This document shows positions 20,468 through 43,344 of a stretch of 45,505 nt of DNA, one piece after another. The translations under genes and the position numbers were made by a program. The notes beneath the pieces are model-generated. The model did no database searches, was not told where the DNA came from, and saw only the letters and a list, made by a program, of their open reading frames with translations. How positions within the stretch are numbered: the first letter of the stretch is position 1; each line of letters begins with the position of its first letter. Origin of the DNA: Sphingomonadales bacterium (lineage in GTDB: Bacteria > Pseudomonadota > Alphaproteobacteria > Sphingomonadales > Sphingomonadaceae); contig JANXUK010000059.1 of assembly GCA_025356275.1 (NCBI GenBank), positions 1 to 45,505 of the forward strand. The letters run 5' to 3'.

Positions 20468-20636
20468 ACGTCATTACCAAGAAAATCTGCGCGCCTGGAA
20501 CTGTCAACGAGCTTCATGATGCTAAGCCGTCCACTGAGTGCATCGCTCCTTGCACGCTCCAGGCGGGCGGGGTAGCTTCGAAGCCGGGATGCCGCTGATG
20601 GATTTGCGCGCACGAAAGAACGAAGGCACGATCGAG

Positions 20637-21504: not shown

Positions 21505-21559
21505 CTTGCGTTTGAGGGCGTTGGTCCGATGATTGCCGCCCTTTGGTTTGGAGCGGTGG

Positions 21560-22410: not shown

Positions 22411-22470
22411 AAGTGCCAGATTTGCGGGGTTTTCCTCGCATCGGAACGCCCGATATGCTACCCGATCACG

Positions 22471-25331: not shown

Positions 25332-27554
25332 CTAGAACTTGATCCCCGCTCGCACGCCATAGGTGCGCGGCGCGGCATAGGACGTATAGTGATCACCAGT
25401 CTGGATTTCAGTCTGGGCGTTGAACGAGCGAGCGTTGCTCAAGTTCTTACCCCAAAGTTCCAGATTGTAGCGCTCGTTCGGACTGGTCCAGCGCGCGGAT
25501 GCGCCGAATTCGTCGAAAGCAGGCTGACGGATGACGTTGTCAGAATCAGTAAACCAACCGGAGCTGTGATACCAGTTGGCGTTGAGCGACAATTCGCCTT
25601 CGCCAGCCAAGGTGATTCTATATTCCGGCGCGAGCGTCGTGGTCAGTTTTGCCGTAACCGGCAGATCGTTCCCTTGGCAGTTGCCGGTCGTGAGCGGCAC
25701 CCCACCCAAAGGCGTGCCGATCAGGCACGTTGGAAACGCGCTGTTATATTTGCCACTTAGAATTTGCGCACTGGCGTTGATCCGAAAGGCCTTCGTCGCG
25801 CGCAAATTGAATTCTGCGTCAATGCCCTTTAGGCGGGCAGAGGGGCCGTTGATAATGACGATTGGGCCGTTGAGGAACGTGGAAATTTGGATATTTTTAT
25901 AATCATACAGGAAACCCGCGACGTTGAACGTCAGGCGGTGATCGAGGAACTGGGTCTTAAGTCCGACCTCATAGGCAGTGAGTGTCTCCGGGGCGAACGG
26001 GTTGTAGCCGAACGCACTGGCGACAAGCGTCGTCGTGTTGAAGCCGCCGCTCTTGAAGCCAGTGTTGATTGAAGCGTAGCCCAGCACGTCCTTTGTGAAG
26101 TGATGATCCAGCGAGACGCGATAGGTGAATTTGTTAAACCGTTGACTACGGCCGCTGACCGCGGCCTCCCGAGTTGTCAGGCCTGTCAACGTCGCGGTAA
26201 AATCCTGCGTGCCATCGAGCGTCCGCTTTTCGGTCGTATAACGACCGCCGAGCGTCAACTTTGTGTCGGAAGTTATCGCGTAGGTACCCTGTGCATAGCC
26301 AGCGAATGACGTCGTGTCGGTTGTCGATTTCCATGATCGCATCCCCTGCGCAGGAGGCGGCGCGGCGCTTTCGAAGTTCTGGACGAGCGGATCGTAGCGT
26401 CCGGATGCACCGTAATAGAAAGCCCCCGCCACCCAGCTTAATGGCCCCGAATTCTTGTTGGAGGACAGCTGCAATTCTTGGCTGAACTGTCTGTCTTTCT
26501 GTACCATATTCGAGAACCAGAAAAACGGCGTCGGCGTCAGATCAAGATCGAACTGGCGGCGGAACTTATAGGCACGGTAAGCTGATGTGCTCGAGAACCT
26601 TGCGAAACCCAGATCACGCTCCCAGCGCAACGATCCGCCTCCACCTTCAGCATTGATGAGCGGATCATGATTGGTGTTAAGATCGTACCGGTTGGAAAGA
26701 GTAAAAGTGGCCCCTCCACCGAACCGAGGCTTTGTCCCTTCGAGCGGGGCTGCACCAATCATTGAATTTTTGCTGTTGGCATAATCCGCTGAGAGCGTGA
26801 ACTTGTCACTGGATGATGGCTCGAACACAATCTTCGAACGCACGCCATAGTCGTGATAGACGCGAAACGCGTCATGACCATTAAACAGGTTCTTACCCCA
26901 GCCATCCCCTTGGCTGTTAGCGTAAAAGCTGAAATCGGCCGCAACGGTATCGCTGAGGCCTCCCGTAAGATATCCTCGCGTCGACAGCGAATTATAGTTG
27001 GCGTAGCCGACAGACAAATCACCGCTAGTCGTATGACTGGGTTCGCGCGTGATAACTTGGATCAATCCACCGGTCGCATTGCGACCGAAAAGCGTACCTT
27101 GGGGCCCCTTAAGTACTTCAATCCGCTCGATATTGCCGAATGAAAATATGCCGCCGCCCTGCGACCCGACATATACCCCATCGACATAAGAAGCGATCGC
27201 ATTTTCCAAGCCCGGGCCGCCAGCTAGGCTGCCGACGCCGCGAAGCCGCACGAAGAGATACCCATTGCCGTTGCTCGCATATAGCGCCGGTACCGCCAGA
27301 CGCAGATCGATCGTGTCGCGCACGCCCGTCTTTCCAAGAGTGTCCGCAGTCACTGCGCTGACTGCGATCGGAACATCTTGGAGCCGCTCCTCGCGACGCT
27401 GGGCAGTTACAACGATGTCCTGAACGGCGCTTTCGGCGTCGCTTGCACTCTGGGTTGGCGGCGCGCTTTCGACAGGCGGCACGCTCTGCGCGGCGGCGGG
27501 TGCCGCAAGACCGATTGTCAGTACAGATATGGATACAAGTGCCAAGGTCTTCAT
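25332..27554 (-). CDS. TonB-dependent outer-membrane receptor 2
   Basis: 740 residues. A signal peptide (MKTLALVSISVLTIGLAAPA, then AAQS) precedes a short Pro/Ser linker. The plug start is QDIVVTAQRREERLQDVPIAV and the plug motif is YVDGVYVGSQ...IERIEVLKGPQGTLFGRNATGG. The barrel ends in phenylalanine (GVRAGIKF). GGAGGGG precedes the ATG. It shares family with receptor 1 but is clearly different in sequence. It is the first gene before the VanA-like oxygenase, with a block B operator about 83 bases upstream. It probably imports the block B substrate. Confidence 0.93.
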   Translation of the reverse strand: MKTLALVSISVLTIGLAAPAAAQSVPPVESAPPTQSASDAESAVQDIVVTAQRREERLQDVPIAVSAVTADTLGKTGVRDTIDLRLAVPALYASNGNGYLFVRLRGVGSLAGGPGLENAIASYVDGVYVGSQGGGIFSFGNIERIEVLKGPQGTLFGRNATGGLIQVITREPSHTTSGDLSVGYANYNSLSTRGYLTGGLSDTVAADFSFYANSQGDGWGKNLFNGHDAFRVYHDYGVRSKIVFEPSSSDKFTLSADYANSKNSMIGAAPLEGTKPRFGGGATFTLSNRYDLNTNHDPLINAEGGGGSLRWERDLGFARFSSTSAYRAYKFRRQFDLDLTPTPFFWFSNMVQKDRQFSQELQLSSNKNSGPLSWVAGAFYYGASGRYDPLVQNFESAAPPPAQGMRSWKSTTDTTSFAGYAQGTYAITSDTKLTLGGRYTTEKRTLDGTQDFTATLTGLTTREAAVSGRSQRFNKFTYRVSLDHHFTKDVLGYASINTGFKSGGFNTTTLVASAFGYNPFAPETLTAYEVGLKTQFLDHRLTFNVAGFLYDYKNIQISTFLNGPIVIINGPSARLKGIDAEFNLRATKAFRINASAQILSGKYNSAFPTCLIGTPLGGVPLTTGNCQGNDLPVTAKLTTTLAPEYRITLAGEGELSLNANWYHSSGWFTDSDNVIRQPAFDEFGASARWTSPNERYNLELWGKNLSNARSFNAQTEIQTGDHYTSYAAPRTYGVRAGIKF

Positions 27555-27636
27555 AGCATTTCCCCTCCGCGGCTTCTTTGGAGCCTAATCTTGTCGGTCG
27601 ATCCGACTTCGCACTTACACGTGCCTTTTTTCTTTG

Positions 27637-27659
27637 TGGAAAACAACAGGAATATTCCA
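27637..27659. promoter_or_regulatory. Block B operator, copy 1 (TGGAA-N13-TTCCA)
   Basis: Perfect TGGAA and TTCCA arms separated by 13 bases. The right part contains the palindrome GGAATATTCC. It lies between the flavin monooxygenase stop and TonB receptor 2, upstream of the receptor. It resembles copy 5 closely: both are GTGGAAA-N7-GAATATTCC-AAAAA. Confidence 0.7.
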
Positions 27660-27676
27660 AAAAAGCTGTGCGCCTG

Positions 27677-29449
27677 TCAGGTTTGTTTCTCTCCGCTCAA
27701 CGCGAGGATCGAAACCATCGTTTGATGCAACGCGGCTTCGGGGTCATCCGGCAACGTCGGGACTCTCCATGCCACGTAAAGATCGGGTCGAACGAGGATC
27801 GCGCCGGTTTCGTCGGCCAAGCAAATCCGCGAAAAGTCACCGTAAGGATCCTCAAACCTCTGGCCTGGCCCGACACGAACAATATGGATTGGAAGTCCGA
27901 TTGCGCTAGCAACGTTTGCGGCGGCCTCGGTCCAGGCCGTACCGCCCACACCAGTTAACAGGGAAAATGCGCCAAGCGTGCAGATATCGAGCGATGAAAT
28001 GCGATGGTGTTTCCTAGTCAGCCAGACATGTGGCAACCGCCGTCCTGCTTCCACCCCCATGATCACGTCGAGCTCAGGATTCTCGACCGATAATATCTCG
28101 GTGTCTTCGACGATCGCGTCAGAGCGGTAGCGTTGGTTATGCTCGCCGCCAAGTGCGCCGAATCCGACAATGTTTCCGGCGATTGCTGCTTGCAGTTTCG
28201 CGCGGCGGGTAATTCCGGCAGGAGACGGATCGGCAAGATCGGCCGGCAGAGCATCGAACTGGGTAGGCGTCTGCTCGCCGGGCTTGAAGCCTAGGGCTTG
28301 CGCCACCGGCGCGTAAACTCGAAAATTTTCAGTCGCTCGCCGAACAACGTCGTGTCCGATCGGCATTCGCTCTGCCTCATAGGAATCAAGCAATTTAGTG
28401 CCGGCTTCGCCGCGGACGACCATCGCCAGCTTCCACGCCAAGTTGAAGGCGTCCTGCACCGACGTGTTCGAGCCGAGCCCATTCATGGGAGGATGGCGGT
28501 GAACCGCGTCGCCCATGCAGAACACTCGCCCAAGGCTATAAGCGTTCGCCTGAACCCGGTTCATTCTCCAGCAATGCGTTCCTTGAATCTCTACATCGAC
28601 CGAAGTGTCGCCGATAATGCGGTGGACGATGTCAGTTGCCCTCTCCGTCGAAAGGACCGGCGGCTCGTCCTTGGCATCGAAACCCCAGGTGGCAACCCAC
28701 CTGTCCCACGCGCGGACCATACGCAAGCCGGCAATCGGGTACCCACCAATCCCCTGTCCAGGCTGGACGATCCAGTAAAGCACGCCCGGCCGATGCGCGA
28801 CGAAACTCGACAAGTCCGCCTTGAAGAGGATGCCAATGTTGGCCGCGATATTGGTCGGCCCTTCGAGCTGCAGACCAAGCCTTTCGAGAACGCGAGAATT
28901 GGCACCGTCAGCGCCGATCATGTAACGCGCCCGGAAGGTCGATCGGGCACCAGTGATTCGGTCTAGGACGTACGCGGTAACGCCTCCTTGATCTTGTTCG
29001 AAATCGAGAAGCTCGGTGTCAAAACGGACTCGGGATCCGGCGCGCATCGCGCCGGCAAGCAGGATTGGCTCCAACAGGTCTTGAGTGAGATCGACCATTG
29101 AGCACGGACTGATCAGATCGTGTTGAGCCTTGTAGCGCGGATGCGTATGCCACGATTTGAGGCGCCCGAGCTCGAAGCCGGCAAGCGCTGTGCAATAGAC
29201 GTGATCTCCCATAAGATGATGCGGCGTCGCGACCGCCATGGCTTGCTCGTCCAGCCCAAAATGGCGCAGGATCTCCATAGTGCGTTGATTGGTTATGTGG
29301 GCGCGCGGAGAATTGGACGTAGAACTATATTTGCTGATGCACAGGTTTGTAACGCCGTATCGACCGAGTGCCAGCGACGCAGTAGCCCCGGACGGTCCTG
29401 AACCGATGATCAGAACATCGACCTCGATCGTTTTTTCAATGGCGTTCAT
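27677..29449 (-). CDS. TfdB/PheA-like flavin-dependent aromatic monooxygenase 1
   Basis: A 590-residue class A flavoprotein hydroxylase. It has the FAD motif VDVLIIGSGPSGATASLAL (about residues 10-28), the second FAD motif GRVFCMGDAVHRHPP, and the following MNGLGSNTSVQDAFNLAWK segment characteristic of 2,4-dichlorophenol hydroxylase-like enzymes. The C-terminal thioredoxin-like domain is present. It adds one hydroxyl ortho to a phenolic group using NAD(P)H. GGAGAGG precedes the ATG. It is divergent from the gntR gene across operator copy 2. A naphthol-, phenol- or chlorophenol-type substrate is plausible. Confidence 0.9.
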   Translation of the reverse strand: MNAIEKTIEVDVLIIGSGPSGATASLALGRYGVTNLCISKYSSTSNSPRAHITNQRTMEILRHFGLDEQAMAVATPHHLMGDHVYCTALAGFELGRLKSWHTHPRYKAQHDLISPCSMVDLTQDLLEPILLAGAMRAGSRVRFDTELLDFEQDQGGVTAYVLDRITGARSTFRARYMIGADGANSRVLERLGLQLEGPTNIAANIGILFKADLSSFVAHRPGVLYWIVQPGQGIGGYPIAGLRMVRAWDRWVATWGFDAKDEPPVLSTERATDIVHRIIGDTSVDVEIQGTHCWRMNRVQANAYSLGRVFCMGDAVHRHPPMNGLGSNTSVQDAFNLAWKLAMVVRGEAGTKLLDSYEAERMPIGHDVVRRATENFRVYAPVAQALGFKPGEQTPTQFDALPADLADPSPAGITRRAKLQAAIAGNIVGFGALGGEHNQRYRSDAIVEDTEILSVENPELDVIMGVEAGRRLPHVWLTRKHHRISSLDICTLGAFSLLTGVGGTAWTEAAANVASAIGLPIHIVRVGPGQRFEDPYGDFSRICLADETGAILVRPDLYVAWRVPTLPDDPEAALHQTMVSILALSGEKQT

Positions 29450-29494
29450 GGCACCTCTCCAGAAAAATTAACGCCCGTGTAGCCGACGTAGCTT

Positions 29495-29517
29495 CGGAAT
29501 TTAAATTCCATATTCCA
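29495..29517. promoter_or_regulatory. Block B operator, copy 2, in the gntR intergenic region
   Basis: CGGAA-N13-TTCCA with one arm mismatch. The element includes the perfect 14-base palindrome GGAATTTAAATTCC at 29496-29509 plus an extra TATTCCA half-site. It lies between the divergent flavin monooxygenase gene (46 bases away) and gntR (87 bases away), the classic position for autoregulation. Confidence 0.7.
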
Positions 29518-29603
29518 TAAAACGATTTGGGAACTCGGCAAACTGACTTGCCATCGCCGGATCCGCAGTCCACATCTAAACGACCATTCGGGAGGTAAAA
29601 TTC

Positions 29604-30380
29604 ATGGTGAAGCGGTCGCTCAATTCCGAAATCGGCGGGGACGAAGATTCTAGCGGTCGGACTATGGCTGAGCTGGTCTATCGTCGTTTGCGCGCTGATA
29701 TCGTTTGGGGCGTTTTGGCGCCTGACGTACCTTTGAAATCGGATCAGGTCAGGGCAGCCTACGGAACCGGCATCAGTCCGCTGCGTGAAGCGCTGACGCG
29801 GCTGACGGCAGAACGTTTGGTCACCGCGGCCGGCCAGCGAGGTTTTAGAGTAGCGCCGCTCAGTCCGGCCGATGTGCTCGACACAATGGAAACCCGCATA
29901 TTGATTGAATCTGAAGCGCTTCGTCTGTCGATCGAAAAGGGCGACGTTAACTGGGAAACCAGTGTTGTTGCTGCCGCGCACGCGCTCCGCCGTACGCCCC
30001 TCCCTACCGCTCCTGGTCCTGCGGCCGAGGCGTGGGCAGAGCTTCACCAACGATACCACGCTGCATTGTTGGCGGCGTGCGGATCGCCTTGGCTCATCAG
30101 CCTGGCTGATATTTTGTTTGCGCAGGCCGAACGTCATCGCATCCGTGCCGTTTCCGTGACAGAACCGATCAAACATCGCGATCGCCCGGCCGAGCATGAT
30201 GCGATCCTGGACGCGGTCGTGACACGCAACGCGAGGCTCGCGACCGCGGAACTCGATCGTCACTACCGCTTGAGTGCCAACCACGTCGCGCAAGCAATAC
30301 TGCAGACGACCGGAGGTGCCGGAATACCGGGTGGCGTTACGAATTCGACCGAGTCGACCGACGCCTTGGCAACGGCCTAA
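29604..30380 (+). CDS. GntR-family regulator, FCD (FadR/VanR) subgroup
   Basis: 258 residues. The N-terminal winged helix-turn-helix is AELVYRRLRADIVWGVLAPD...YGTGISPLREALTRLTAE. The C-terminal helical FCD domain contains ETRILIESEALRLSIE, LHQRYHAALLAACGSPWL and AEHDAILDAVVTRNARLA, with aspartate and histidines suited to metal and carboxylate ligand binding. GGGAGGT precedes the start. It is the only regulator gene in block B and is divergent from the first flavin monooxygenase gene. It is the leading candidate to bind the five TGGAA-N13-TTCCA sites, although that spacing is longer than usual for this family. Confidence 0.9.
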   Translation: MVKRSLNSEIGGDEDSSGRTMAELVYRRLRADIVWGVLAPDVPLKSDQVRAAYGTGISPLREALTRLTAERLVTAAGQRGFRVAPLSPADVLDTMETRILIESEALRLSIEKGDVNWETSVVAAAHALRRTPLPTAPGPAAEAWAELHQRYHAALLAACGSPWLISLADILFAQAERHRIRAVSVTEPIKHRDRPAEHDAILDAVVTRNARLATAELDRHYRLSANHVAQAILQTTGGAGIPGGVTNSTESTDALATA

Positions 30381-30611
30381 GGTTTGCCACCGGCAACCAA
30401 GCGGCCGTTCATTCAGCCTATACGGTGACATCACGCTGCCGAGCAGGCGCAGCGAGGGCGACCGATTTTAAGATGACAGACTTGAACAAAAGCAGGACGC
30501 GGGTGCTTTGGCCCGCGCTTTCGGTTTATGGTCATCGGTTCGCTCCCCTACACGAACGCGCGGCTCAACGTCCCTCTTAGGTTTCGCTCAGCCAGCCTTG
30601 CATGCGGATCG

Positions 30612-31523
30612 TTACTGGATGCGGGTAGAGATGCTTCCGATGCCGCCAATCTCCATGCGGATGACATCGCCCTTGTGCACCCATGTGCTGGTTTCGGCAC
30701 CCACGCCGGCTGGCGTACCCGTCAAGATGATATCGCCGGGATACAGCGTGTTAAATCGCGAGGCCCCCTCAATCAATTCGGCCACTGAAAATACCATACC
30801 GCCAGTGGTGGAATTCTGTCGCAGCTCATCATTGACCCACGTCTTTAGCGACAAGGCCTGCGGATCAGGGATCATCGAGGCTGGTACGATCCAGGGCCCG
30901 AGTGGGCAGGAACCGTCGAAGTTCTTATGGCTGCCCCAGTCATATTTGAACGGCGAACTGTCGGGCATTTGGGGGCGCATTATGCGGTCGCGCGCGGAAA
31001 GATCGTTGGCGACGGTATAGCCAGCGACATAATCCAGCGCGTCAGCCGCCGGGACTTTCCGCGCCTCGCGGCCGATGATGACCGCGAGTTCAATCTCAAA
31101 ATCAAGCGCTTCGGATTCGTTTTCCACCGTCGCGTTCGGACCGACTACGCAGCCGCCTGCCTTGATGAAGAAGAACGGCCCTGCCCCGACAGCTTTTGGC
31201 GAAGGCTGCGGGGGCAACCCGCGGTGCTTGGCGACCGCGTCCATATGATCCTGATAATTTGCACCCGCACAATAGATCGTTCCCGGCAACCGCAACGGTG
31301 CGAGCAACTGTACGTCGCTGACCGGCTGCCCTCCCCCATTGAGCGTCTTTGAGACTGAGAACAGCGCAGAGCTTGCCCGTGCCCAGTCGGCCACGATCGC
31401 TTCAAGCGATTCATAGGCTGGATTTTGCGCGGCATCCGCTGCATCGTACAGGCGGTCATTGGCGACGATTCCGGCGCGAGCACCGCGCGCCGACGCATAA
31501 CTTGCGAGTTTAAAGTCTTGCAT
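30612..31523 (-). CDS. Fumarylacetoacetate-hydrolase-family enzyme 1
   Basis: 303 residues. The FAH fold core is GTIYCAGANYQDHM, metal ligands are in the ESEALDFEIELAVIIG segment, and the DYVAGYTVANDLSARD and GDIILTGTPAGVG motifs follow. It hydrolyses or hydrates acylpyruvate-type substrates such as fumarylpyruvate, maleylpyruvate or other ring-cleavage products. GGAG lies nine bases upstream of the ATG. It has its own operator copy upstream and is separated from the 3-hydroxybenzoate hydroxylase gene. The 231 bases between it and gntR hold no gene I recognise. Confidence 0.9.
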   Translation of the reverse strand: MQDFKLASYASARGARAGIVANDRLYDAADAAQNPAYESLEAIVADWARASSALFSVSKTLNGGGQPVSDVQLLAPLRLPGTIYCAGANYQDHMDAVAKHRGLPPQPSPKAVGAGPFFFIKAGGCVVGPNATVENESEALDFEIELAVIIGREARKVPAADALDYVAGYTVANDLSARDRIMRPQMPDSSPFKYDWGSHKNFDGSCPLGPWIVPASMIPDPQALSLKTWVNDELRQNSTTGGMVFSVAELIEGASRFNTLYPGDIILTGTPAGVGAETSTWVHKGDVIRMEIGGIGSISTRIQ

Positions 31524-31611
31524 ATCAGGTCTCCGCTCCCGGCGCGCGTTTGACGACTCCAGCTAGAGCTGCCCTGCTTAACCACCTAATCCTTGCCTAC
31601 GCCTTTAAATA

Positions 31612-31634
31612 TGGAAATCAAGCATGACTTTCCA
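31612..31634. promoter_or_regulatory. Block B operator, copy 3
   Basis: Perfect TGGAA and TTCCA arms with 13 bases between (TGGAAATC...GACTTTCCA). It lies 89 bases upstream of the FAH-family gene 1 start and just after the stop of the flavin hydroxylase gene. Confidence 0.65.
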
Positions 31635-31639
31635 AAGTG

Positions 31640-32809
31640 TCAAATGACGGCATCATACAGCCATGCGAGCCCATCATAAGACTGGGTCGGCGTTCGCGCG
31701 GATAGCATCGTGTCTCGTAATTCTGCCGCTACGCCTCGGGCATGATAGAACTCGCCGTGCACGCGTGCCATGATTTGGCATCGTCCCGTGCGCAAGTACC
31801 GGCGGTTCTGGTACCGCTCGAACGCGTCGCCAAGCGGGCCGCCGGCTGCCACTTCGTCAGCAAGCACAACCGCATCTTCCATGGCCATGCACGCCCCTTG
31901 CGCCAGATATTGGAGCATCGGATGAGCAGCGTCACCCATCAGAGTAACCCTCCCCCGGCTCCAGTTCTTTTTGGGTTCGCGATCGCACAGCACCCACATA
32001 CGCCAGCTCTCGATCTTAGACAGCAACGCCTGGACCGGTTCACAAGTCCCTGCGAACCGCCGATGCAGTTCTTCGGCATCCCCCTTGGTGTCCCAGCCTT
32101 CGACGTAGGCGTCGCTGTGGAATACCGCGACAAGGTTGAATAACTCGCCCCCACGCAGCGGATATTGCACGAGATGGTTTTTTGGCCCGCCCCACAGAAT
32201 CATCGCGTTTCTACGATACGCTTCAGGCACGTCGCTGGTCGGCAGGACTGCCCGGTACGCGATATGGCCGGACACAACCGGCGGTCCGTCGTCGACAATT
32301 GCCTGACGGGTTTGCGACCAAAGCCCATCGGCGCCGATGAGCGCCGCGCCGCGTATGGCCTCGCCGGTATCCGTTGTCACGGTGACAGTCGTGCCATCAT
32401 CCTCGAATCCGGCGACCTTGGTCGATGTTTTCAACGCGATCGCGCCATTCGCACGGCAGGCGTCGAGCAAGACCCGGTGAAGGTCAGCACGGTGGATAAG
32501 GGCATAGGGATAGGTAAAACGCTCACGAAACTCCGCGCCGACAGGAATGCGGGTGACGACGTCGCCCGAAACGCCATTCATGACGATCAGGTCATCTGGA
32601 AATACGGCAAGCGCATTAGCCTGTTCCGCGAGGCCCATCGTCGCAAGCGCGCGGTACCCGTTCGGGCCGACCTGGATACCAGCGCCCACTTCCTTGAATT
32701 CAGGTGCCTGCTCGATAACGATGGAAGCGCGGCCGACATTGGCCAGCGTAAGCGCAGCCGACAAGCCAGCGATGCCGCCGCCAACGATCAGAATAGGGTC
32801 GTTACTCAT
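31640..32809 (-). CDS. 3-Hydroxybenzoate 6-hydroxylase-like flavin monooxygenase
   Basis: 389 residues. FAD motif ILIVGGGIAGLSAALTLANVG at the N-terminus, then EVGAGIQVGPNGYRAL, the DG motif ALIGADGLWS and the GD motif GRVTLMGDAAHPMLQYLAQG. The segments SWRMWVLCDREP and YDGLAWLYDAV at the C-terminus match enzymes that hydroxylate 3-hydroxybenzoate to gentisate. Salicylate-1-hydroxylase-type relatives share the fold, but the gene sits immediately before gentisate dioxygenase and an FAH-family gene, which supports gentisate as product. It overlaps the FAH gene by four bases (ATGA). Confidence 0.85.
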   Translation of the reverse strand: MSNDPILIVGGGIAGLSAALTLANVGRASIVIEQAPEFKEVGAGIQVGPNGYRALATMGLAEQANALAVFPDDLIVMNGVSGDVVTRIPVGAEFRERFTYPYALIHRADLHRVLLDACRANGAIALKTSTKVAGFEDDGTTVTVTTDTGEAIRGAALIGADGLWSQTRQAIVDDGPPVVSGHIAYRAVLPTSDVPEAYRRNAMILWGGPKNHLVQYPLRGGELFNLVAVFHSDAYVEGWDTKGDAEELHRRFAGTCEPVQALLSKIESWRMWVLCDREPKKNWSRGRVTLMGDAAHPMLQYLAQGACMAMEDAVVLADEVAAGGPLGDAFERYQNRRYLRTGRCQIMARVHGEFYHARGVAAELRDTMLSARTPTQSYDGLAWLYDAVI

Positions 32810-33660
32810 GCTGTCACCGCCATGCTCATGCTACCGATCCCCGAAATGCTTGCCGTGATCGTGTCTCCGGGGACGATCGGTCCAACTCCTTCCGGGGTGC
32901 CGGTGAAAAGCAGGTCGCCTGGTTCAAGCGTGTAAAAGCGCGAAGCGAACTCGATGAGTTCCGGGACGTTCATGATAAGATCACGCGTATTCGCCCGCTG
33001 GCGGGGATCGCCATTCACATCAAGCGCGAGGTCGAGGTTATGCGGATCATCCACCTCATCCGCGGTCACCATCCATGGCCCCACTACAGAATAGCTGTCG
33101 AGTGACTTGCGCAGGCTGCGCTCTTCGGGCCCGCGAATCGTGATGTCGAGCCCGATCGTATAGCCGGCGACATAGTCGAGAGCGTCGGCCGCACGCACGT
33201 TGCGCGCGGCACGGCCGATGATCGCGACCAGCTCGATCTCGTGGTCAGTACGACGGTCCGGTAGGCTGATGACGATCGGCGCGCTTGCGCCAATCATCGA
33301 GCTTGTCGCCTTGAGGAAAAGTCCGGTCTCATGGATCTTGCGCACATTCGCCCGCGAGAAGGTTTCCGTATCGGCGATCGCCTCGTCCAAATGGGCTTGA
33401 TAATTCACTGGAGCGGCAACGAGTTTGCCGGGATTGGCGACTGGACTAAGCAGGCGGACAGAGGCCAGATCATGACGCGTCGCGCCCTCCATCGCCGTCG
33501 CAATCGCCGGGCTGAGTCGCTGCAACTGCATGATGAGCATATCCTGACGCGGATAAGGGTAGCGCGCCGGGTCGATCGCAGTGAGCACCGACGATACGTC
33601 GATAACTGCATTCCCCTCGATCACACCCAGCCGATGATCGTCAAACATGCACAGTTTCAA
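32806..33660 (-). CDS. Fumarylacetoacetate-hydrolase-family enzyme 2 (probable fumarylpyruvate hydrolase)
   Basis: 284 residues from TTG 33660 with GGGAG six bases upstream. An ATG at 33648 is the alternative. FAH motifs are KLVAAPVNYQAHLDE, DHEIELVAIIGRAARNV, DYVAGYTIGLDITIRG and GDLLFTGTPEGVGPI. Located between gentisate dioxygenase and the 3-hydroxybenzoate hydroxylase-like gene, it most likely hydrolyses fumarylpyruvate to fumarate and pyruvate, or maleylpyruvate directly. It is only moderately similar to FAH enzyme 1, so they are probably not redundant. Confidence 0.88.
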   Translation of the reverse strand: MKLCMFDDHRLGVIEGNAVIDVSSVLTAIDPARYPYPRQDMLIMQLQRLSPAIATAMEGATRHDLASVRLLSPVANPGKLVAAPVNYQAHLDEAIADTETFSRANVRKIHETGLFLKATSSMIGASAPIVISLPDRRTDHEIELVAIIGRAARNVRAADALDYVAGYTIGLDITIRGPEERSLRKSLDSYSVVGPWMVTADEVDDPHNLDLALDVNGDPRQRANTRDLIMNVPELIEFASRFYTLEPGDLLFTGTPEGVGPIVPGDTITASISGIGSMSMAVTA

Positions 33661-33692
33661 GTTACTCTCCCAATATTATTTCGCGATCGCTC

Positions 33693-34709
33693 TCAGGCGG
33701 CGGCCTCGCTTCGCCAGAAGCCGAGATGTTCCTGCAGCGGTCGGTCCGAGAAGCTGAACAGGACGCATTCCTCGTCGGCTTCGAACTGCCGCCACGTCCA
33801 GCCGGGCGCCACGAATACATCGTGTCGCTGCGCGTACCAGGTCGTTTCTCCAATGGTAATCCGAGCGCTACCCTCGACCACGCAGTAGACTGCACCGTCG
33901 GTTTCGCGATGGCTGACGCCGCGGAAGCCGCGCGGGAGAAGCTGGAGATAAGCACCCATGCTGCGGATCGGCGATTGGCCCGTGGTCGGATCCGTGAAAG
34001 AGACCTTCAATCCGTGTTCGGGATGCCATTCCTCGGCGCGCGCCATAACGTCGAGCGCATCGCGGCTGCGGCTGTAGGGATAGTGAAATAACGGGCTCGC
34101 GCTGGTCGTCCTAAGATAGCCTATTGGCGTCAGCCCCGATGCGTATCGTGCCTGAGCATCGCCCAGCGGGCGGGTCATGTTCTGTCGGCGCTCGGGATAA
34201 TCCGCAGAAAAGCCAGCATTCAGCATCTGCACGACCGGGACGTCGAGGCCGTCGAGCCACATCACCGGGTCGGCGCCCTCCGCGCCATGGTCGTGGAAGA
34301 CATTGGTCGGCGTAATGATGAAGTCACCGGGCTCCATGAGAACCTTCTCGCCGTCGACCGAGGTGAACCCGCCGCGCCCGTCAAGGATGAGCCGCAGCGC
34401 CGACGCGGTGTGACGATGGCTTGGCGCGATCTCGCCAGGCAGTATCATCTGGATACCGGCGTAGAGCGAGGTGGTCGCCAGCGACCTGCCACGCAATGCT
34501 GGATTTTCGAGGATGAGCACGCGCCGCTCAGCGTCCTCCGCGGAAATCGCAGCACAAGCGAGATCCATATTGCGGCGGATCACTGCCGCGCGCCAAAGTA
34601 CCGGATCAACCAATGCCTTTGGCTCACGCGGGGTCAATCCACGGATGACCTCCCACAGCGGCGCCATGTTGTCAGCGGCGAGCCGTTCGCGGAATTCTGA
34701 TTGTGACAT
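33693..34709 (-). CDS. Gentisate 1,2-dioxygenase
   Basis: A 338-residue bicupin dioxygenase. The N-terminal cupin has SHRHTASALRLILDG with His98 and His100 and a third histidine in NVFHDHG (His139 or 141), the Fe(II) ligands of gentisate dioxygenase. The second cupin includes GAVYCVVEGSARITIG and WTWRQFEADEE. It cleaves gentisate between the carboxyl and hydroxyl carbons to maleylpyruvate. It is first in a three-gene minus-strand run with the FAH and flavin hydroxylase genes. Operator copy 4 sits two bases upstream of the ATG, over the expected ribosome-binding region. Confidence 0.9.
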   Translation of the reverse strand: MSQSEFRERLAADNMAPLWEVIRGLTPREPKALVDPVLWRAAVIRRNMDLACAAISAEDAERRVLILENPALRGRSLATTSLYAGIQMILPGEIAPSHRHTASALRLILDGRGGFTSVDGEKVLMEPGDFIITPTNVFHDHGAEGADPVMWLDGLDVPVVQMLNAGFSADYPERRQNMTRPLGDAQARYASGLTPIGYLRTTSASPLFHYPYSRSRDALDVMARAEEWHPEHGLKVSFTDPTTGQSPIRSMGAYLQLLPRGFRGVSHRETDGAVYCVVEGSARITIGETTWYAQRHDVFVAPGWTWRQFEADEECVLFSFSDRPLQEHLGFWRSEAAA

Positions 34710-34710
34710 A

Positions 34711-34733
34711 TGAAATCCCGAATTGAATTTCCA
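34711..34733. promoter_or_regulatory. Block B operator, copy 4
   Basis: TGAAA-N13-TTCCA, one mismatch from the perfect arms. Its right side (AATTTCCAAAG) resembles copy 3 (ACTTTCCAAAG). It lies between gentisate dioxygenase (minus) and the divergent DODA-type gene (plus). Because it abuts the gentisate dioxygenase start, that transcript must begin within or upstream of the site. Confidence 0.6.
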
Positions 34734-34832
34734 AAGTTATTGATATCCTGATAGGTTGGAATGTATAGCCTTGCAACCGGGCAATCGTCGGGAAAGTACG
34801 GTTTTTGGGAAATGGCGAGGATCTCGAGTCAC

Positions 34833-35642
34833 ATGCGAATGCCAACGCTCTATATTCCGCATGGCGCGGGCCCCTGTTTTTTCATGGATTTTGGTCCCAG
34901 CACCCCAGCGATGTGGGAAGAGACCGCGGCCTATCTGCGCTCTATCGCACGAACCCTTCCCGCGCCGCCCAAGGCGCTGCTGATTGTGTCCGCACATTGG
35001 CTGACCCCTATTCCGACCATCAATGCCGGGCCCACTCACAGCCTCTATTACGATTATTTCGGCGGCGCTCCGGCCGCGTATCAATTGCAATATGCCGCTC
35101 GCGGTGACAGCGCACTGGGGCTCCGCATCGTGGACCTGCTCCACGTCGCGGGATTGGAATGCGAACGGGAGATGACACGCGGCCTTGATCACGGCGTGTT
35201 TATTCCACTCATGCTGATGTTTCCCGACGCCAATATTCCCGTCATCCAGTTATCTCTGGTTGCTGATCAGGATCCCCAAACGCATCTCGCGCTGGGTCGG
35301 TCGTTGGCTCCGCTGCGTGATGAGGGCGTGCTGATCGTAGGATCCGGCATTAGTTTCCACAATTCAGCGGTTATGCCGGCGGGGCTGCGCGGCGAAGCCG
35401 ATGTCGGGTCAGGTATTTTCGACGCGTGGCTCACCGAAGCCATGACAGGCAACATCGGAGACGTGCGGGCAGCCCTGCTGGCTAATTGGGAAAACGCACC
35501 AATGGGGCGTCACAGCCACCCGACTCCAGAACACTTGCTCCCGCTGCACGTCGCTGCCGGCGCGGCGGAGGCGGACCGAGCTGTCCACACATTTCGCGAC
35601 AGCTTTCTTGGCGCAACATTTTCCGCGTTTCAGTTCGGATAG
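34833..35642 (+). CDS. DODA-type (LigB superfamily) aromatic ring-opening dioxygenase
   Basis: About 269 residues from the ATG at 34833, with GAGG upstream. Alternative starts lie at 34761, 34812 and 34839. Class III extradiol features of the 4,5-DOPA-dioxygenase group are PTLYIPHGAGPCFF, LLIVSAHW, GLDHGVFIPLMLM and GSGISFHNS, which supply histidines for a metal site. It probably opens a catechol-type ring. It is first in a plus-strand run with the AzoR-like and KstD-like genes. Its TAG stop at 35640 is in the same frame as the AzoR-like gene that follows. Confidence 0.85.
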   Translation: MRMPTLYIPHGAGPCFFMDFGPSTPAMWEETAAYLRSIARTLPAPPKALLIVSAHWLTPIPTINAGPTHSLYYDYFGGAPAAYQLQYAARGDSALGLRIVDLLHVAGLECEREMTRGLDHGVFIPLMLMFPDANIPVIQLSLVADQDPQTHLALGRSLAPLRDEGVLIVGSGISFHNSAVMPAGLRGEADVGSGIFDAWLTEAMTGNIGDVRAALLANWENAPMGRHSHPTPEHLLPLHVAAGAAEADRAVHTFRDSFLGATFSAFQFG

Positions 35643-35672
35643 CCGATAGCCAACCTGCACAGGAGAGACGAA

Positions 35673-36284
35673 ATAAATATTCTACATCTCGATTCAAGCA
35701 TTCTGGGGAGCGAGTCCGCCAGCCGTCCCCTTTCAGCCGCCATCGTTTCACGGCTTTTGGAGTCGCATCAGGCGGCGACGGTCACGTATCGCGATTTGAC
35801 TGCAGACGCACCGTACCATCTGGCGGCGCCGCAGCTGGCTGCATGGCGCGGCGTTCAGCCTGAAGACGTTGCTCTCGTCGCCGACATCGCGCTGGGCAAT
35901 GCTATTGTCGAGGAGCTGTTCGCGGCTGATGTGATCGTCATCGGCGCGCCGATGTACAATTTCGCCATCGCGTCGCAATTAAAATCATGGTTCGACCGCG
36001 TTTTAGTTCCGGGCAAGACTTTCAAATACGGTATAAATGGACCCGAGCCGCTGCTACCGCCTGGTAAAAAGATCTACATCGTATCATCGCGCGGTGGCGT
36101 GTATACTGGTAGCAGTCCCGCCGCACCGCTCGAACACCAAGAAAGCTATCTGCTGGGAACGCTTGGTTTTCTGGGCCTTCGCGATGTCGAGATCGTTCGG
36201 GCGGAGGGACTAGCGATCAGTCCGGATGCCCGGCAGGCGGCTATCGCTCAAGCGCAGTCCGATATTTCAGCGCTCTCAGTCTAA
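35673..36284 (+). CDS. AzoR-like FMN-dependent NADH:quinone/azo oxidoreductase with non-standard start
   Basis: About 203 residues. The N-terminal strand and FMN-phosphate loop, ILHLDSSILGSESASR, lie upstream of the first TTG (35757). No ATG, GTG or TTG exists in frame between the preceding stop at 35642 and 35757. The expected start is ATA at 35673, seven bases after AGGAG. ATT at 35679 is the alternative. Later motifs are ADVIVIGAPMYNFAIASQLKSWFDRV and PGKTFKYG, then IVSSRGGVYTG, all typical of AzoR. It reduces quinones or azo bonds with a reduced nicotinamide cofactor. In this setting quinone recycling is the likelier job. Confidence 0.8.
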   Translation: MNILHLDSSILGSESASRPLSAAIVSRLLESHQAATVTYRDLTADAPYHLAAPQLAAWRGVQPEDVALVADIALGNAIVEELFAADVIVIGAPMYNFAIASQLKSWFDRVLVPGKTFKYGINGPEPLLPPGKKIYIVSSRGGVYTGSSPAAPLEHQESYLLGTLGFLGLRDVEIVRAEGLAISPDARQAAIAQAQSDISALSV

Positions 36285-36294
36285 GGCCCGCCGG

Positions 36295-37989
36295 ATGGGA
36301 AATGTTAACGAGTGCGGGGCTGACGATACGACGTTCGACGTCGTTGTCGTCGGATCGGGGGTCGCTGGCATGACGACTGCTCTCGTAGCGTCGATCGGCG
36401 GACTAAAGGCCATCGTTCTTGAAAAGACCGATCAGGTCGGTGGCGCGACGTCGTACGCATCGGGAGGTGCATTTCTGCCTGGGTGCCACTTGCTACCGCC
36501 GGAACCTGACCCAACCGCTCCGATGACGTACCTTCGTCACAACATGGTAGGTCGCATGAACGAGGCGATGGTCGAAGCATATCTAGCGAATGGCCCCAAG
36601 GCGCTGGCCCTTCTGGAAAAGCATACTTCCGTGCGGTTCCAGCCCTATGGGGGGGTCGACTACCGGATGAACGCGCCAGGCGCCACGACGTCACCCCGGA
36701 CGGTTCTTCCGGTAACGTTTGATGGCAGCGTCCTTGGTGCCGACTTACGTAACCTGCGGCAGCCCTTGCCGACTACCATGATCTTTGGCGGGATGCAGGT
36801 CGATTATGCCGATATTGCGCAGCTGACAAAGGCAACGAGGTCACTCCGGGCGGCCCTCTATGCCGTGCGGTTATTGGCGCGTCATACCTGGGGCCATCTG
36901 CGATACGGCCGCTCGCCTCGCCTTGTTTTCGGCAACGCGCTTGCTGGCCGATTGTACAAGTCCGTGCTCGATCGCGGCATCGAGGTGCGGCTCGGAACCG
37001 AAGTGATCGATCTGATTATCGACGACGGTCGCGTCACGGGGGTGACCAGCCGGCGAAATGGTGTCTCCCAAACGCTTCACGCAAGGCGGGGAGTAATGCT
37101 TGCGTCGGGCGGTTTCCCCGGCAACGAGGCAATGCGGCAGCAACGCGCCCTGTATCCTGACCTGCACAAATCGCTCCCGCCGCCTACCAACACAGGCGAT
37201 GGCATCGCAATGGCGCTTCGGGCCGGAGCTACGCTGGCCGAAGGCAATTTCTCAGACTTTTGTCTGACCCCTGTTTCTGCATATCGCGATGCCAAGGGCC
37301 GCGAAAGGCTCTTCCCCCATTTCGCGTTTGACCGCTGCCTGCCCGGTGCGATCGCTGTGGATGCTAATGGCCGCCGGTTCGCTAATGAGGGGGTGGTATA
37401 TTCCGACTTTGTCCTTGCGATGCATGCAGCGAACGCGGTGCCGACGTTCCTCATCTGCGACCACCGCTTCCTGCGCAAATACGGCTTGGGCGCTGTGCTT
37501 AGAGCACCTTTCCCCTACCGCTCCTTTCTTCGCAACGGGTATCTGACCAAAGCTCAGACCCTGGACGGGCTTGCGATGAAACTGGGCATCGACGCTGTCG
37601 GACTGGCCGACAGCATTGCCCGCAACAACGCCTATGCCGCGAGCGGCGAGGATCTCGATTTCGGAAAGGGGGACGATCCGTACAGCCGTTCGCTTGGCGA
37701 CCCCTCTCACGGTCCCAATCCCTGCCTAGGAGCAATCGGTGCAGGACCCTATTACGCGATCCTGCTTTATTCTGGCGACACCGCCACAACGACCGGTCTT
37801 GCCGTCACACCCGACGCGCAGGTGACAGATGCGCACGGTAATCCGATCGAGGGTCTATATGCGGCTGGACCGGACATGGCGAATCCCACGATGGGAACAA
37901 ACCCCAGCGGCGGATGCAACATTGGACCGGCGCTCGCATTCGGTTATCTGGCAGCGCAGCACATGGGCGAAACCCTCAGTCCAACTTGA
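36295..37989 (+). CDS. FAD-dependent 3-ketosteroid-dehydrogenase/fumarate-reductase-like flavoprotein
   Basis: About 564 residues from the ATG at 36295, eleven bases after the AzoR-like stop. The FAD motif is FDVVVVGSGVAGMTTALVAS followed by VLEKTDQVGGATSYASGGAF, and the C-terminal FAD segment is IEGLYAAGPDMANPTMGTNPSGGCNIGPALAFGYLAA. This FAD_binding_2 group includes KstD and other alpha,beta-dehydrogenases of cyclic ketones. It could introduce a double bond into, or aromatise, a cyclic ketone intermediate. The 3' end overlaps the convergent extradiol gene by 14 bases. Substrate unknown; a steroid role is not supported by neighbours. Confidence 0.85.
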   Translation: MGNVNECGADDTTFDVVVVGSGVAGMTTALVASIGGLKAIVLEKTDQVGGATSYASGGAFLPGCHLLPPEPDPTAPMTYLRHNMVGRMNEAMVEAYLANGPKALALLEKHTSVRFQPYGGVDYRMNAPGATTSPRTVLPVTFDGSVLGADLRNLRQPLPTTMIFGGMQVDYADIAQLTKATRSLRAALYAVRLLARHTWGHLRYGRSPRLVFGNALAGRLYKSVLDRGIEVRLGTEVIDLIIDDGRVTGVTSRRNGVSQTLHARRGVMLASGGFPGNEAMRQQRALYPDLHKSLPPPTNTGDGIAMALRAGATLAEGNFSDFCLTPVSAYRDAKGRERLFPHFAFDRCLPGAIAVDANGRRFANEGVVYSDFVLAMHAANAVPTFLICDHRFLRKYGLGAVLRAPFPYRSFLRNGYLTKAQTLDGLAMKLGIDAVGLADSIARNNAYAASGEDLDFGKGDDPYSRSLGDPSHGPNPCLGAIGAGPYYAILLYSGDTATTTGLAVTPDAQVTDAHGNPIEGLYAAGPDMANPTMGTNPSGGCNIGPALAFGYLAAQHMGETLSPT

Positions 37990-38911
37990 CCGGAGGCGGA
38001 TCACCCCATTGCGACTTAAGGGCATCGGCAGCAGCCACAAGAGTCAGCGGCTGATCTTCATTGACTACGTCGGTATCAGTCCAATGCTCGTACCCCCGAC
38101 CCCATGGATCGGTCCATTGATTGTACACCTGACTGCCGAGCTTGTGCCGTCCGATGCCCCAACGGTGCGTCAGACCGGCTTCCTTCATGTGATAATGACC
38201 AAAAAAAATGTCGTCGTAATCCTGCACCTCGAAGCCGAGATGATTAAGCCCGACCAGCGGTCCCTGGTGTGTCATGAAGACGTGATGATCGACATAATCC
38301 TTGCCGCGCGCAAGTCGATTGAACGTGGCAATGATGTTGTCCTCTTGCCCCGCGTAGACATCATCGGTCCCGATCAGACCAAGGGTTTCGCGATACCAGG
38401 CACGGGTGCGTTTCACATTGGGAGTCGAGGTAACATAGTGGCCAAGGCGCTTGACCTGCGAAGGCCCCGCCGGTCGGCGGTAGAATTCACCATCTGCGCG
38501 CTGACGGGCAAATGCTGAGTTGATAGGATGGTGGGCGACCGGCACGGCTGGGAGAATTTCGACACCGAATAGCAAATCGATCGCGAAGCCGTCCGGATCG
38601 GTCAGACGAACACGCTGGCCGCCGCCCGGCTCACCAGTCGCTTCGACAGGTGACGCCCCATCGATCGACGCGGCATCGCGCAGCGCTTCGAGAGACTCGA
38701 CCAAAAAACCAGCCCCCAAGAAGGCAGGTTCACCGGCTTCTACAATATGGCACCTTGGAGCAGCGTCGGTACCGCGAGAGTACAGCGCACTTGGCGTCTG
38801 CTCTGTGGTCACTAGGCCGAATGCCTCGGCAAACCCTCGGCTGACATCAAGGTCGGGAGCCCGCAAGCGAACAAAGGCGAGTTGGGTCACGGGAACGGTC
38901 TGCACATCCAT
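37976..38911 (-). CDS. Type I (VOC) extradiol dioxygenase
   Basis: A 311-residue two-domain vicinal-oxygen-chelate protein. The C-terminal domain has the full iron triad: His158 (GHYVTSTP), His224 (NHLGFEV) and Glu275 (RGYEHWTDTD). The N-terminal domain is degenerate, as usual. Its length matches 2,3-dihydroxybiphenyl and 1,2-dihydroxynaphthalene dioxygenases. It would cleave a catechol-type ring next to the hydroxyls. AGGAG precedes the ATG closely. It is divergent from the operon with the NahE-like gene across operator copy 5, consistent with one pathway. Confidence 0.88.
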   Translation of the reverse strand: MDVQTVPVTQLAFVRLRAPDLDVSRGFAEAFGLVTTEQTPSALYSRGTDAAPRCHIVEAGEPAFLGAGFLVESLEALRDAASIDGASPVEATGEPGGGQRVRLTDPDGFAIDLLFGVEILPAVPVAHHPINSAFARQRADGEFYRRPAGPSQVKRLGHYVTSTPNVKRTRAWYRETLGLIGTDDVYAGQEDNIIATFNRLARGKDYVDHHVFMTHQGPLVGLNHLGFEVQDYDDIFFGHYHMKEAGLTHRWGIGRHKLGSQVYNQWTDPWGRGYEHWTDTDVVNEDQPLTLVAAADALKSQWGDPPPVKLD

Positions 38912-38953
38912 CTCCTATCGGAACTATATGGCCCACCATATATGACACATATG

Positions 38954-38976
38954 TGGAAATAAAAGAGAATATTCCA
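38954..38976. promoter_or_regulatory. Block B operator, copy 5
   Basis: Perfect TGGAA-N13-TTCCA, and with its flanks GTGGAAA-N7-GAATATTCC-AAAAA as in copy 1. It lies in the divergent interval between the extradiol dioxygenase gene (minus) and the gentisate-dioxygenase-like/NahE operon (plus). A separate palindrome CACATATGTG overlaps its left edge. Confidence 0.7.
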
Positions 38977-39066
38977 AAAATCACGTGACACTAGGTTGTC
39001 AGCGCCTTAAAGGCATCAGTTACACCCCGACGCTCACGAAGCGGAAAGGGTCGAGAGGAGCGCACC

Positions 39067-40098
39067 ATGTCAACCACGGCCGCCAATTATTCCGATGATC
39101 CCGTATCGCCGGAATTGCGCGCGCAATATGCCGCGAACGATATCACTGTTCTTTGGGAAAGTCCGAACGGCGCGCTGCCGCCACCGTCGGAACGGGCGCG
39201 CGTCTGGCACTGGGGCGACATCAGGCCGGTCATGTTCGAAACTGCGAAGATTACACTGCCCGCGATCATTGAGCGACGGGTGATGCAACTCGTCAATCCA
39301 ACAGTCGATAATCCGGGTTCTGAATCAATTGCCGGACTGCTAAATGCTGGGATCCAAGCGCTCATGCCTGGCGAGCATGCGCGACCACATCGCCACAGTA
39401 TGCACGCACTACGCTTCGTGCTTGAAGGTCATGGTGCGGAAACTGTGGTCGAAGGCAAGTCATGCGCGATGGAGCCAGGAGACCTGATTGTGACTCCAGG
39501 CTGGACCTGGCACGAACACCGCAATGTCGAGGGCCAGCCGACGGTGTGGGTCGATATTCTCGATGCCGCGCTCCACCGCGCGTTCGGCACTGCCCGCTTC
39601 CAGCCGGGGCCGATCCAGAGCCCGCGCAGCGTTATCGCAGATGCCGCCTTTACCAGCGGTGCATTCGTACCCGTCGCAGCGCAAGTCGAAGCCCAATCAT
39701 ATTCGCCGATCTTCCGCTATAGCGCAGCCGATGCCCGACGTGCGGTCGAAGTTGCTCCAACGGCGGCGGATGGCTCACGCACCGTCCGCTATGCCGATCC
39801 TGTTACTGGTGGCGCAGTTCTTCCGACCATCGACTGTTACCTGACACAGATTGAGGCTGGAACGGCAACGCATGCAGTGCGTAGCTCAGCAAGCGCGCTC
39901 TGCGTCGTCGTCGATGGTGAAGGCGAGACGCAGGTCGGCGACGATCTCGTGTCGTGGGGTCCCAAGGATGTGTTCAGCCTGCCGCAGGGGCAATGGGTTT
40001 CCCACCGCTGCAAGCATGGCAAGGCTCGCCTGTTCACCGCCAGCAATCGCGAAGTGTTTCGGCACCTCGGCCTGTTGACCGAAGAGCTCGCGGCCTGA
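39067..40098 (+). CDS. Gentisate-dioxygenase-like bicupin ring-cleavage enzyme 2
   Basis: 343 residues. The first cupin has PHRHSMHALRFVLEG with His108 and His110 and WHEHRNVEG with a further histidine, as in gentisate, salicylate or 1-hydroxy-2-naphthoate dioxygenases. It differs strongly from the gentisate dioxygenase at 33693-34709 apart from these motifs, so it is not a recent duplicate and may have another substrate. GAGAGGAG precedes the ATG. It is the first gene of the plus-strand operon with the NahE-like aldolase, class II aldolase, aldehyde dehydrogenase and second flavin monooxygenase genes. Confidence 0.85.
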   Translation: MSTTAANYSDDPVSPELRAQYAANDITVLWESPNGALPPPSERARVWHWGDIRPVMFETAKITLPAIIERRVMQLVNPTVDNPGSESIAGLLNAGIQALMPGEHARPHRHSMHALRFVLEGHGAETVVEGKSCAMEPGDLIVTPGWTWHEHRNVEGQPTVWVDILDAALHRAFGTARFQPGPIQSPRSVIADAAFTSGAFVPVAAQVEAQSYSPIFRYSAADARRAVEVAPTAADGSRTVRYADPVTGGAVLPTIDCYLTQIEAGTATHAVRSSASALCVVVDGEGETQVGDDLVSWGPKDVFSLPQGQWVSHRCKHGKARLFTASNREVFRHLGLLTEELAA

Positions 40099-40119
40099 CG
40101 CCCAATCAGGAGTTTCGTA

Positions 40120-41094: not shown

Positions 41095-41099
41095 GGTCG

Positions 41100-43302: not shown

Positions 43303-43344
43303 TCTGCTCGACATGGGTAAAAACAGACGGCCGGAGGTTGCAAG

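Follow-up and report, generated by a model that had tools for sequence, protein, structure and literature searches.

A GntR/FCD regulator and five candidate two-module operators in an aromatic catabolic gene block of a Sphingomonadales bacterium

Introduction

Regulators of the FadR subfamily within the GntR superfamily usually recognise TKGT/ACMA operators with 2-3 nt between GT and AC, to which exceptions have been listed; weaker extra boxes have been noted 7-12 nt from the site centres (PMC4494728). Here, we analyse a window of 45,505 nucleotides, i.e., the whole stretch of contig JANXUK010000059.1 of a Sphingomonadales bacterium under study, in which five copies of the element TGGAA-N13-TTCCA lie in the gaps of a catabolic region of 20.9 kb (block B, 24213-45111). 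This region also encodes a GntR protein with a C-terminal FCD domain (29604-30380, plus strand). We propose, with a probability of roughly 0.8, that the five elements would serve as operators of this protein, that it would repress the transcription units of block B including its own gene, and that each operator would consist of two modules.

Among the described systems, Atu1419 from Agrobacterium fabrum (VanR group, FCD subfamily) shares the superfamily and the domain pair with the window GntR protein and is a catabolic repressor. Atu1419 is an FCD tetramer, each dimer of which sits on a 10-bp palindrome (PMC7797058), and its complex with palindromic DNA was the first Foldseek match by E-value to our structure model (6za3, 4e-10, template modelling (TM) score 0.56/0.60). 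A compact palindrome per dimer and more than one palindrome per promoter region would be further features in common. In contrast, the palindrome of Atu1419 reads ATGTATACAT, its sites are 109-190 bp apart and looping by the tetramer has been proposed, whereas the window and its relatives show TTTSSAAA boxes (S = C or G) 18-19 bp apart; moreover, its identity to the window protein is only 22-25%. The nearest solved structure by sequence is that of PmiR from Pseudomonas aeruginosa, a member of the GntR family (7xp0, E 6e-16), which exceeds Atu1419 by TM-score (0.62-0.63/0.77-0.80) but is ~25% identical to the window protein and was compared by sequence and fold alone.

Cooperative binding of several dimers to a repeat operator is known from the GntR protein NanR of E. 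coli, of which three dimers bind. This operator, however, consists of three GGTATA direct repeats, cooperativity is given by an N-terminal extension of 32 residues, and both motif and pathway are different (PMC8012715). In P. putida, the GntR repressor CsiR acts as a dimer on catabolic genes, where two DNA regions are protected, but it belongs to the glutarate pathway, and the passages of PMC6667623 at hand contain no TTTSSAAA operator. LhgR, also a GntR regulator, protects TTGTCTGACAA (PMC8206213). IclR-type regulators that control 3-hydroxybenzoate/gentisate genes, such as GenR, resemble the present case in pathway chemistry and in their GGAAT/ATTCC arms, but differ in protein family, arm order and spacing (PMC8222616). 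In the portions of the open-access literature retrieved on the motif together with GntR, on GntR with gentisate, salicylate or 3-hydroxybenzoate, on CsiR operators and on multi-dimer FCD operators, we found no description of an operator made of a TTTSSAAA pair.

Five intergenic elements in block B

The five copies, none of which is assigned a strand, occupy positions 27635..27661 (element 1, TGTGGAAA-N11-ATTCCAAA, in the gap before the minus-strand TonB receptor and VanA-like genes), 29493..29519 (element 2, TTCGGAAT-N11-ATTCCATA, divergent gap between TfdB-like 1 and gntR), 31610..31636 (element 3, TATGGAAA-N11-TTTCCAAA, gap before the minus-strand FAH-family hydrolase 1), 34709..34735 (element 4, TATGAAAT-N11-TTTCCAAA, divergent gap between the gentisate dioxygenase and a LigB-type dioxygenase) and 38952..38978 (element 5, TGTGGAAA-N11-ATTCCAAA, divergent gap between a VOC extradiol dioxygenase and genes led by a second gentisate-dioxygenase-like cupin). 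The TGGAA-N13-TTCCA arms are perfect at 27637, 31612 and 38954, while one arm mismatch each is present at 29495 (CGGAA) and 34711 (TGAAA). Element 2 is the weakest of the five copies and contains an extra TTCC box; element 4 abuts the start codon of the gentisate dioxygenase gene. Copies 1 and 5 have a span of 28 bases in common, GTGGAAA-N7-GAATATTCCAAAAA. Furthermore, promoter-like hexamer pairs, identified by consensus match only, are found on the minus strand at 27680-27651 and on the plus strand at 38942-38970, with the second hexamer inside element 1 and element 5, respectively.

With at most one mismatch, TGGAA-N13-TTCCA matches the window seven times compared to 0.93 expected matches, a count reached in 0 of 100 shuffles. 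The two matches beyond the five elements (10861 and 28031) are located within open reading frames, have GC-rich cores and are as expected by chance. A spacing of 13 is the sole peak across spacings 0-40, with seven matches at 13 and three or fewer at every other spacing. The three perfect copies are the only exact matches to the pattern in the 3.18-Mb genome, and a search with the extended consensus YGRAAWNNNRNNNNNAHWTTCCAWAR at no more than one mismatch returned the five sites only, site 2 being matched once more by a shifted reading in reverse. As this consensus was derived from the five sites, their own match is by construction and the informative part is that nothing else matches.

Block B contains 12 intergenic gaps between the chosen genes, amounting to 1139 bp in total, and all five 23-bp elements fall into gaps. 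All three divergent gaps (29450-29603, 34710-34760 and 38912-39066) have one element each, and so do the two same-strand gaps that are the longest among eight (27555-27676, 122 bp; 31524-31639, 116 bp). The six remaining same-strand gaps, of 5 to 114 bp, and the convergent gap 30381-30611 have no element. We conclude that the five elements are real, intergenic and beyond chance.

The original prediction, made from the letters of the window, had listed five sites with three perfect and two singly mismatched pairs of arms around a 13-base gap, the 28-base span of copies 1 and 5 and the genes around the elements, all of which our analysis reproduces. Its view that the sites mark one local regulon in block B is supported. 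It had also named matrix matches at like density outside promoters as a sign to the contrary; such matches did not appear in the own genome at one mismatch, while a much looser module-pair pattern does match elsewhere (see below).

The bare pattern is common. Exact matches to TGGAA-N13-TTCCA were found in 180 of 199 family genomes, with 0-6 copies per genome versus 0-8 for a reversed control, and TTGGAAA-N11-TTTCCAA is present in 19 of 385 genomes of the class, with a GC content below 50% in 15 of these 19 loci. No GntR homologue was found near a match in the 30 and 19 loci retrieved (~3 kb each, the 30 being part of many). The bare pattern alone is thus not diagnostic, and the signal consists of its clustering, its AT-rich extension and its tie to a GntR clade. 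A TGGAA-GC-TGCTGCCC-like stretch that fits the bare pattern recurs in loci L010, L011, L012, L014 and L020 of genomes of the family and is probably conserved coding sequence.

The element accompanies one clade of GntR/FCD proteins

The protein encoded at 29604-30380 combines an N-terminal winged helix (PF00392, 53.0 bits, cut-off 27) with a C-terminal, all-helical FCD domain (PF07729, 61.3 bits, cut-off 24.3). Its structure model has a mean predicted local distance difference test (pLDDT) score of 85.8 and shows, from residue 88 on, six helices of at least four residues. The protein belongs to the FadR/FCD subfamily of the GntR superfamily. The CsiR equivalog NF008576 is its closest NCBIfam model, with a score below the cut-off (145.7 vs 218 bits).

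A scan of the genome collection with the window protein as single query gave no match, and a scan with an alignment of six homologues gave 261 relatives, of which the best 80 were used. Searches of plasmids matched 819 and 1522 records, and eight surroundings were retrieved from the top-ranking ones. Altogether, 88 other loci of 3 to 21 kb were compared; L078 repeats L051 and L080 repeats L079, and both repeats were excluded from the clade count. A tree of 83 of the 89 proteins (without L078, L080, L091, L096 and identical rows) was rooted at its midpoint and has long branches, that of the window protein included. The closest homologues are 48-56% identical and originate from Rhizobium, Microvirga, Jiella, Maritimibacter, Mesorhizobium, Salipiger and Agrobacterium. 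Ten GntR proteins, including that of the window, form one group in this tree (support 99/97; 100% of 200 bootstrap trees).

Of the 10 loci of the clade, that of the window among them, 9 have a perfect TGGAA-N12/13-TTCCA element, compared to none of the 77 loci around more distant homologues (Fisher p = 2e-11, kinship not corrected). Within the 88 loci, the perfect N13 form occurs eight times, always in the closest relatives (L048, L049, L075, L076 (twice), L077, L079 and L080), and perfect N12 forms are present in L048, L051, L052 (two, one in an annotated gene), L078, L079 and L080. The plasmid-borne Rhizobium homologues, 51% and 55% identical to the window protein, both have a perfect TTTGGAAA-N11-TTTCCAAA in their loci: in Rhizobium sp. 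AB2/73 it is flanked by gntR and an ABC transporter operon, which diverge from each other, and in R. bangladeshense it precedes an operon that encodes an oxidoreductase, an FAH and a VOC protein. Ahead of gntR, modules start at -77/-58 (L075), -70/-51 (L049) and -69/-51 (L048), positions that would suit autoregulation, and at -160/-141 in L076. The sites, their placement in gaps and their association with the GntR clade are supported at the level of sequence.

In the own family of the window, 8 of 298 genomes including its own encode GntR homologues at E <= 1e-40, of which the other seven are 38-42% identical. Their loci (~3.6 kb each), which were not counted among the 77, yielded no perfect-arm N13 element; one, L041, has the element with a mismatch.

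The enzymes around the regulator differ from those of the window. FAH and VOC genes of one family are present in 8 of the 9 relatives, all but L072 (with the L049 proteins as reference, 60-67% identity for FAH and 56-78% for VOC), and an oxidoreductase is also common to seven of these eight. In the window, no match to the relatives' oxidoreductase or VOC was obtained at E 1e-10, and the window FAH is 32% identical. Moreover, distant loci lacking the element nonetheless have VOC matches (48 of 77) and FAH matches (7 of 77). Since the enzymes differ while the operator is the same, the regulator is the shared partner of the site. The enzymes were rejected as carriers of the site, since neither the oxidoreductase nor the VOC of the relatives is present in the window and the distant VOC or FAH loci lack the element.

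In three Rhizobium loci, a YciI-family gene is located directly 3' of gntR (L048 8734-9117, L049 8671-9054 and L072 9524-9907). The next gene past gntR in the window is the convergent FAH 1.

A proposed two-module anatomy of the element

In the relatives, the extended arm reads TTTGGAAA and is a near-palindrome around GG. Their elements can be described as two 8-bp TTTSSAAA modules with centres 18-19 bp apart, which are mostly inverted but also occur as direct, everted and triple arrangements, and the gap between the arms is 12 or 13. For example, inverted pairs (pitch 18-19) precede the oxidoreductase gene in L048, L051 and L052, a direct pair (pitch 19, one mismatch) lies ~110 bp before the oxidoreductase gene in L077, and a triple GG-GG-CC (pitch 18 and 18) precedes the FAH gene in L079. 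The 77 distant loci contain four exact TTTSSAAA pairs within 80 bp, three of which have a pitch of 18 or 19 (CG-CG in L083; an everted and a direct pair, both in L110). Canonical TKGT/ACMA boxes with GT and AC 2-3 nt apart are absent from the five sites and from those of the relatives, which read TTTGGAAA/TTTCCAAA-like or TTTCGAAA. The original description of the element, one 23-bp palindrome whose spacer is fixed at 13 bp, is not the best one.

Judging from module pitch and orientation, we lean towards one dimer per module and hence two dimers per element. A single dimer might instead bind the element as a wide palindrome, with one monomer on each TTTGGAAA arm and the spacer bent or skipped, which we regard as the best of the alternatives and yet unlikely. 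All five window elements and most clade elements are indeed inverted repeats, and the 8-bp module consensus is only a loose fit to the arms in the window. However, the direct, everted and triple arrangements of the relatives keep an equal pitch, and the arm separation of 18-19 bp far exceeds the GT-AC spacing of 2-3 nt given for FadR-type operators (PMC4494728). In addition, TTTCGAAA of some more distant relatives is by itself a perfect compact palindrome.

Several observations weigh against the reading we propose. The N12 spacing was admitted post hoc, and N13 alone gives 7 of 10 clade loci. When one arm mismatch is allowed in the 88 loci, a spacing of 13 is not enriched (35 matches vs 15-93 at other spacings), 20 of these 35 matches are in distant loci, and perfect arms at a spacing of 15 also give seven matches, all in distant loci. 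The argument linking element and clade rests on perfect arms and their location. No module pair was found within 300 bp of gntR in L051, L052, L077 and L079, though these loci have elements elsewhere. The clade member of L072, an R. etli plasmid locus of 18.5 kb (gntR-clade gene 8854-9531), has neither the element nor catabolic genes around it and is perhaps an orphan regulator.

The pitch itself gave mixed results. In the distant loci, 5 of 21 pairs with one mismatch have a pitch of 18-19, all of them in L083, L086 and L110 (shuffles give ~0.09 per distance). Upstream of gntR in distant loci, pitches of 18 and 19 (3 and 4 loci) at two mismatches are rivalled by a pitch of 23 (6 loci, mainly related Thiodiazotropha), and at three mismatches 18-19 is no longer prominent. 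The window modules fit TTTSSAAA loosely, with 2 of 10 exact and the others having 1-3 mismatches. In the own genome, TTTSSAAA-N11-TTTSSAAA matches elements 1, 3 and 5 plus two other places at two mismatches; at three mismatches it matches 46 places vs 21 for the control, finding four of the five elements and missing element 2. The prevalence of inverted pairs in the clade indicates that orientation is not free. Finally, there are five other FCD matches in the own genome.

In the Thiodiazotropha-type loci L088, L092, L097, L098, L101, L105 and L108, TTTGCAAG and TTTGTAAA/TTTGCAAA-like boxes are found upstream of gntR at ~-140 and ~-117, 23-24 bp apart. Perhaps this branch uses a different module pitch.

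The GntR/FCD protein as the predicted reader

The original prediction had left the reader open between the GntR protein and another regulator of the genome. The comparison across relatives strongly favours the GntR/FCD protein, which we consider very probably the reader of the element. It had further been called the only local regulator, which is correct for block B, where its gene is the only regulator gene found, but not for the window, which also has a MarR-family gene at 20538-21158. This MarR protein was rejected as reader, as none of the other 88 loci contains a match to it at E 1e-10.

A regulator encoded elsewhere in the genome, e.g., of IclR type or another FCD protein, is very improbable as the protein that binds the sites, although the arms recall known IclR operators: E. 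coli IclR binds TGGAAATNATTTCCA and GenR, the IclR regulator of 3-hydroxybenzoate/gentisate use, binds ATTCC-N7(5)-GGAAT (PMC8222616), and the own genome has four IclR_C matches beside the five further FCD matches. Yet the spacing is 13 here compared to 5 in TGGAAATNATTTCCA, and the arm orientation of GenR differs too, in line with the spacing mismatch already seen in the original prediction, so that an IclR protein is an unlikely reader. Furthermore, no IclR domain is present among the window proteins scanned, an IclR gene is found only in L049 of the clade's five annotated plasmid loci, and the element tracks this GntR clade across genera. Least probable is an origin of the elements by chance, or from a mobile repeat or duplicated promoters of which they would be remnants: IS66 adjoins block B, copies 1 and 5 have 28 bp in common and the bare pattern is frequent in other genomes, but the spacer sequences vary from copy to copy, and the sites are confined to block B within the genome. 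Moreover, bacteria of other families have them close to the same regulator, a distribution that cannot arise from duplication inside this genome.

A model for the regulation of block B

From these data we infer a model comprising binding, repression, transcription units, effector and two dimers per element. When substrate is absent, GntR dimers would sit on both modules of the elements at the block B and gntR promoters. Binding over or beside the promoters would repress the transcription units of block B, gntR included; a role as repressor rather than another mode of action is likely. An aromatic acid or a ring-cleavage intermediate might then bind the FCD domain and release GntR, and candidates guessed from the genes are 3-hydroxybenzoate, gentisate and maleylpyruvate-type compounds. 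Upon release, transporter, hydroxylases, dioxygenases and hydrolases would be made together. The transcription units are deduced from gene strands, and a promoter in an element-free gap of 114 or 96 bp is possible.

We regard the operator as a variant hitherto unseen in a known regulator family; it has probably been reused for a different, 3-hydroxybenzoate/gentisate-type pathway. The odds appear balanced for the wider proposition that this GntR/FCD clade reads a modular TTTSSAAA code (two or three modules at a time, spaced by 18-19 bp, variable in orientation and each with its dimer) and that regulator and operator have here been put to use in another aromatic pathway, each of the five gaps having received one copy.

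The model provides a catabolic cluster of seemingly mixed content with a regulator and an operator, and predicts which promoters would respond together. An FCD operator without the GT/AC signature also implies that such regulons would be missed by scans with the family consensus. The relatives with their FAH-VOC genes, mostly plus oxidoreductase, versus the window with 3-hydroxybenzoate/gentisate and extradiol genes make it possible to test whether a regulator has been recruited, together with its sites, to a new pathway. The interest would be higher if both the two dimers per element and the pathway recruitment were true.

Genes of block B and their surroundings

The proposed regulon begins with a VanA-like Rieske oxygenase (24213..25235, minus strand) and a TonB-dependent receptor (25332..27554, minus strand), both assigned by Pfam; the receptor lies behind element 1 and the oxygenase follows it on the same strand. 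Behind element 2 lie the predicted regulon member at 27677..29449 (minus strand), an FAD-dependent aromatic hydroxylase termed TfdB-like 1 in the original prediction, and, divergently, gntR, whose product is proposed as reader from Pfam (GntR winged helix-turn-helix plus FCD), the clade-operator link and the fold. FAH-family hydrolase 1 (30612..31523, minus strand) is the candidate member behind element 3.

Element 4 is followed on the minus strand by the gentisate 1,2-dioxygenase (33693..34709), whose TIGR02272 score of 443.1 bits barely passes the cut-off of 442.1, and by a same-strand run with FAH-family hydrolase 2 (32806..33660) and a 3-hydroxybenzoate 6-monooxygenase (31640..32809; NF006021, 517.3 bits, cut-off 459). 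On the plus strand, the same element is followed by genes for a LigB-type dioxygenase, a flavodoxin-like protein and an FAD oxidoreductase (34761..37989). All of these are proposed regulon members, as are the VOC extradiol dioxygenase behind element 5 (37976..38911, minus strand) and the plus-strand run on its other side (39067..45111), which encodes a gentisate-dioxygenase-like cupin, a DHDPS-family aldolase (previously termed NahE), a class II aldolase, an aldehyde dehydrogenase and a second FAD aromatic hydroxylase. The cupin (39067-40098), which is followed by the DHDPS-family aldolase, reaches 218.5 bits with the gentisate 1,2-dioxygenase model, whose cut-off is 442.1, and may be a dioxygenase that acts on a different substrate. 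Like the receptor and the Rieske oxygenase, the two FAH hydrolases, the LigB- and VOC-type enzymes, the flavin hydroxylases, the aldolases and the aldehyde dehydrogenase take their names from Pfam.

Block A (8431-21158) encodes the alpha and beta subunits of a ring-hydroxylating dioxygenase, two LigB-type proteins, an HpcH/HpaI aldolase, a TonB receptor, an MFS transporter, an esterase, a glutathione S-transferase (GST) and the MarR regulator. Its single TGGAA-N13-TTCCA match at no more than one mismatch is that at 10861, inside an open reading frame and chance-like. Block B may be acquired DNA; its DNA similarity to plasmids is limited to 127 bp near the window end. IS66 genes (Orf2-like TnpB and transposase, 21533-24054) divide block A from block B, and an open reading frame with a Mu-type transposase C-terminal domain is located at 113-1642.

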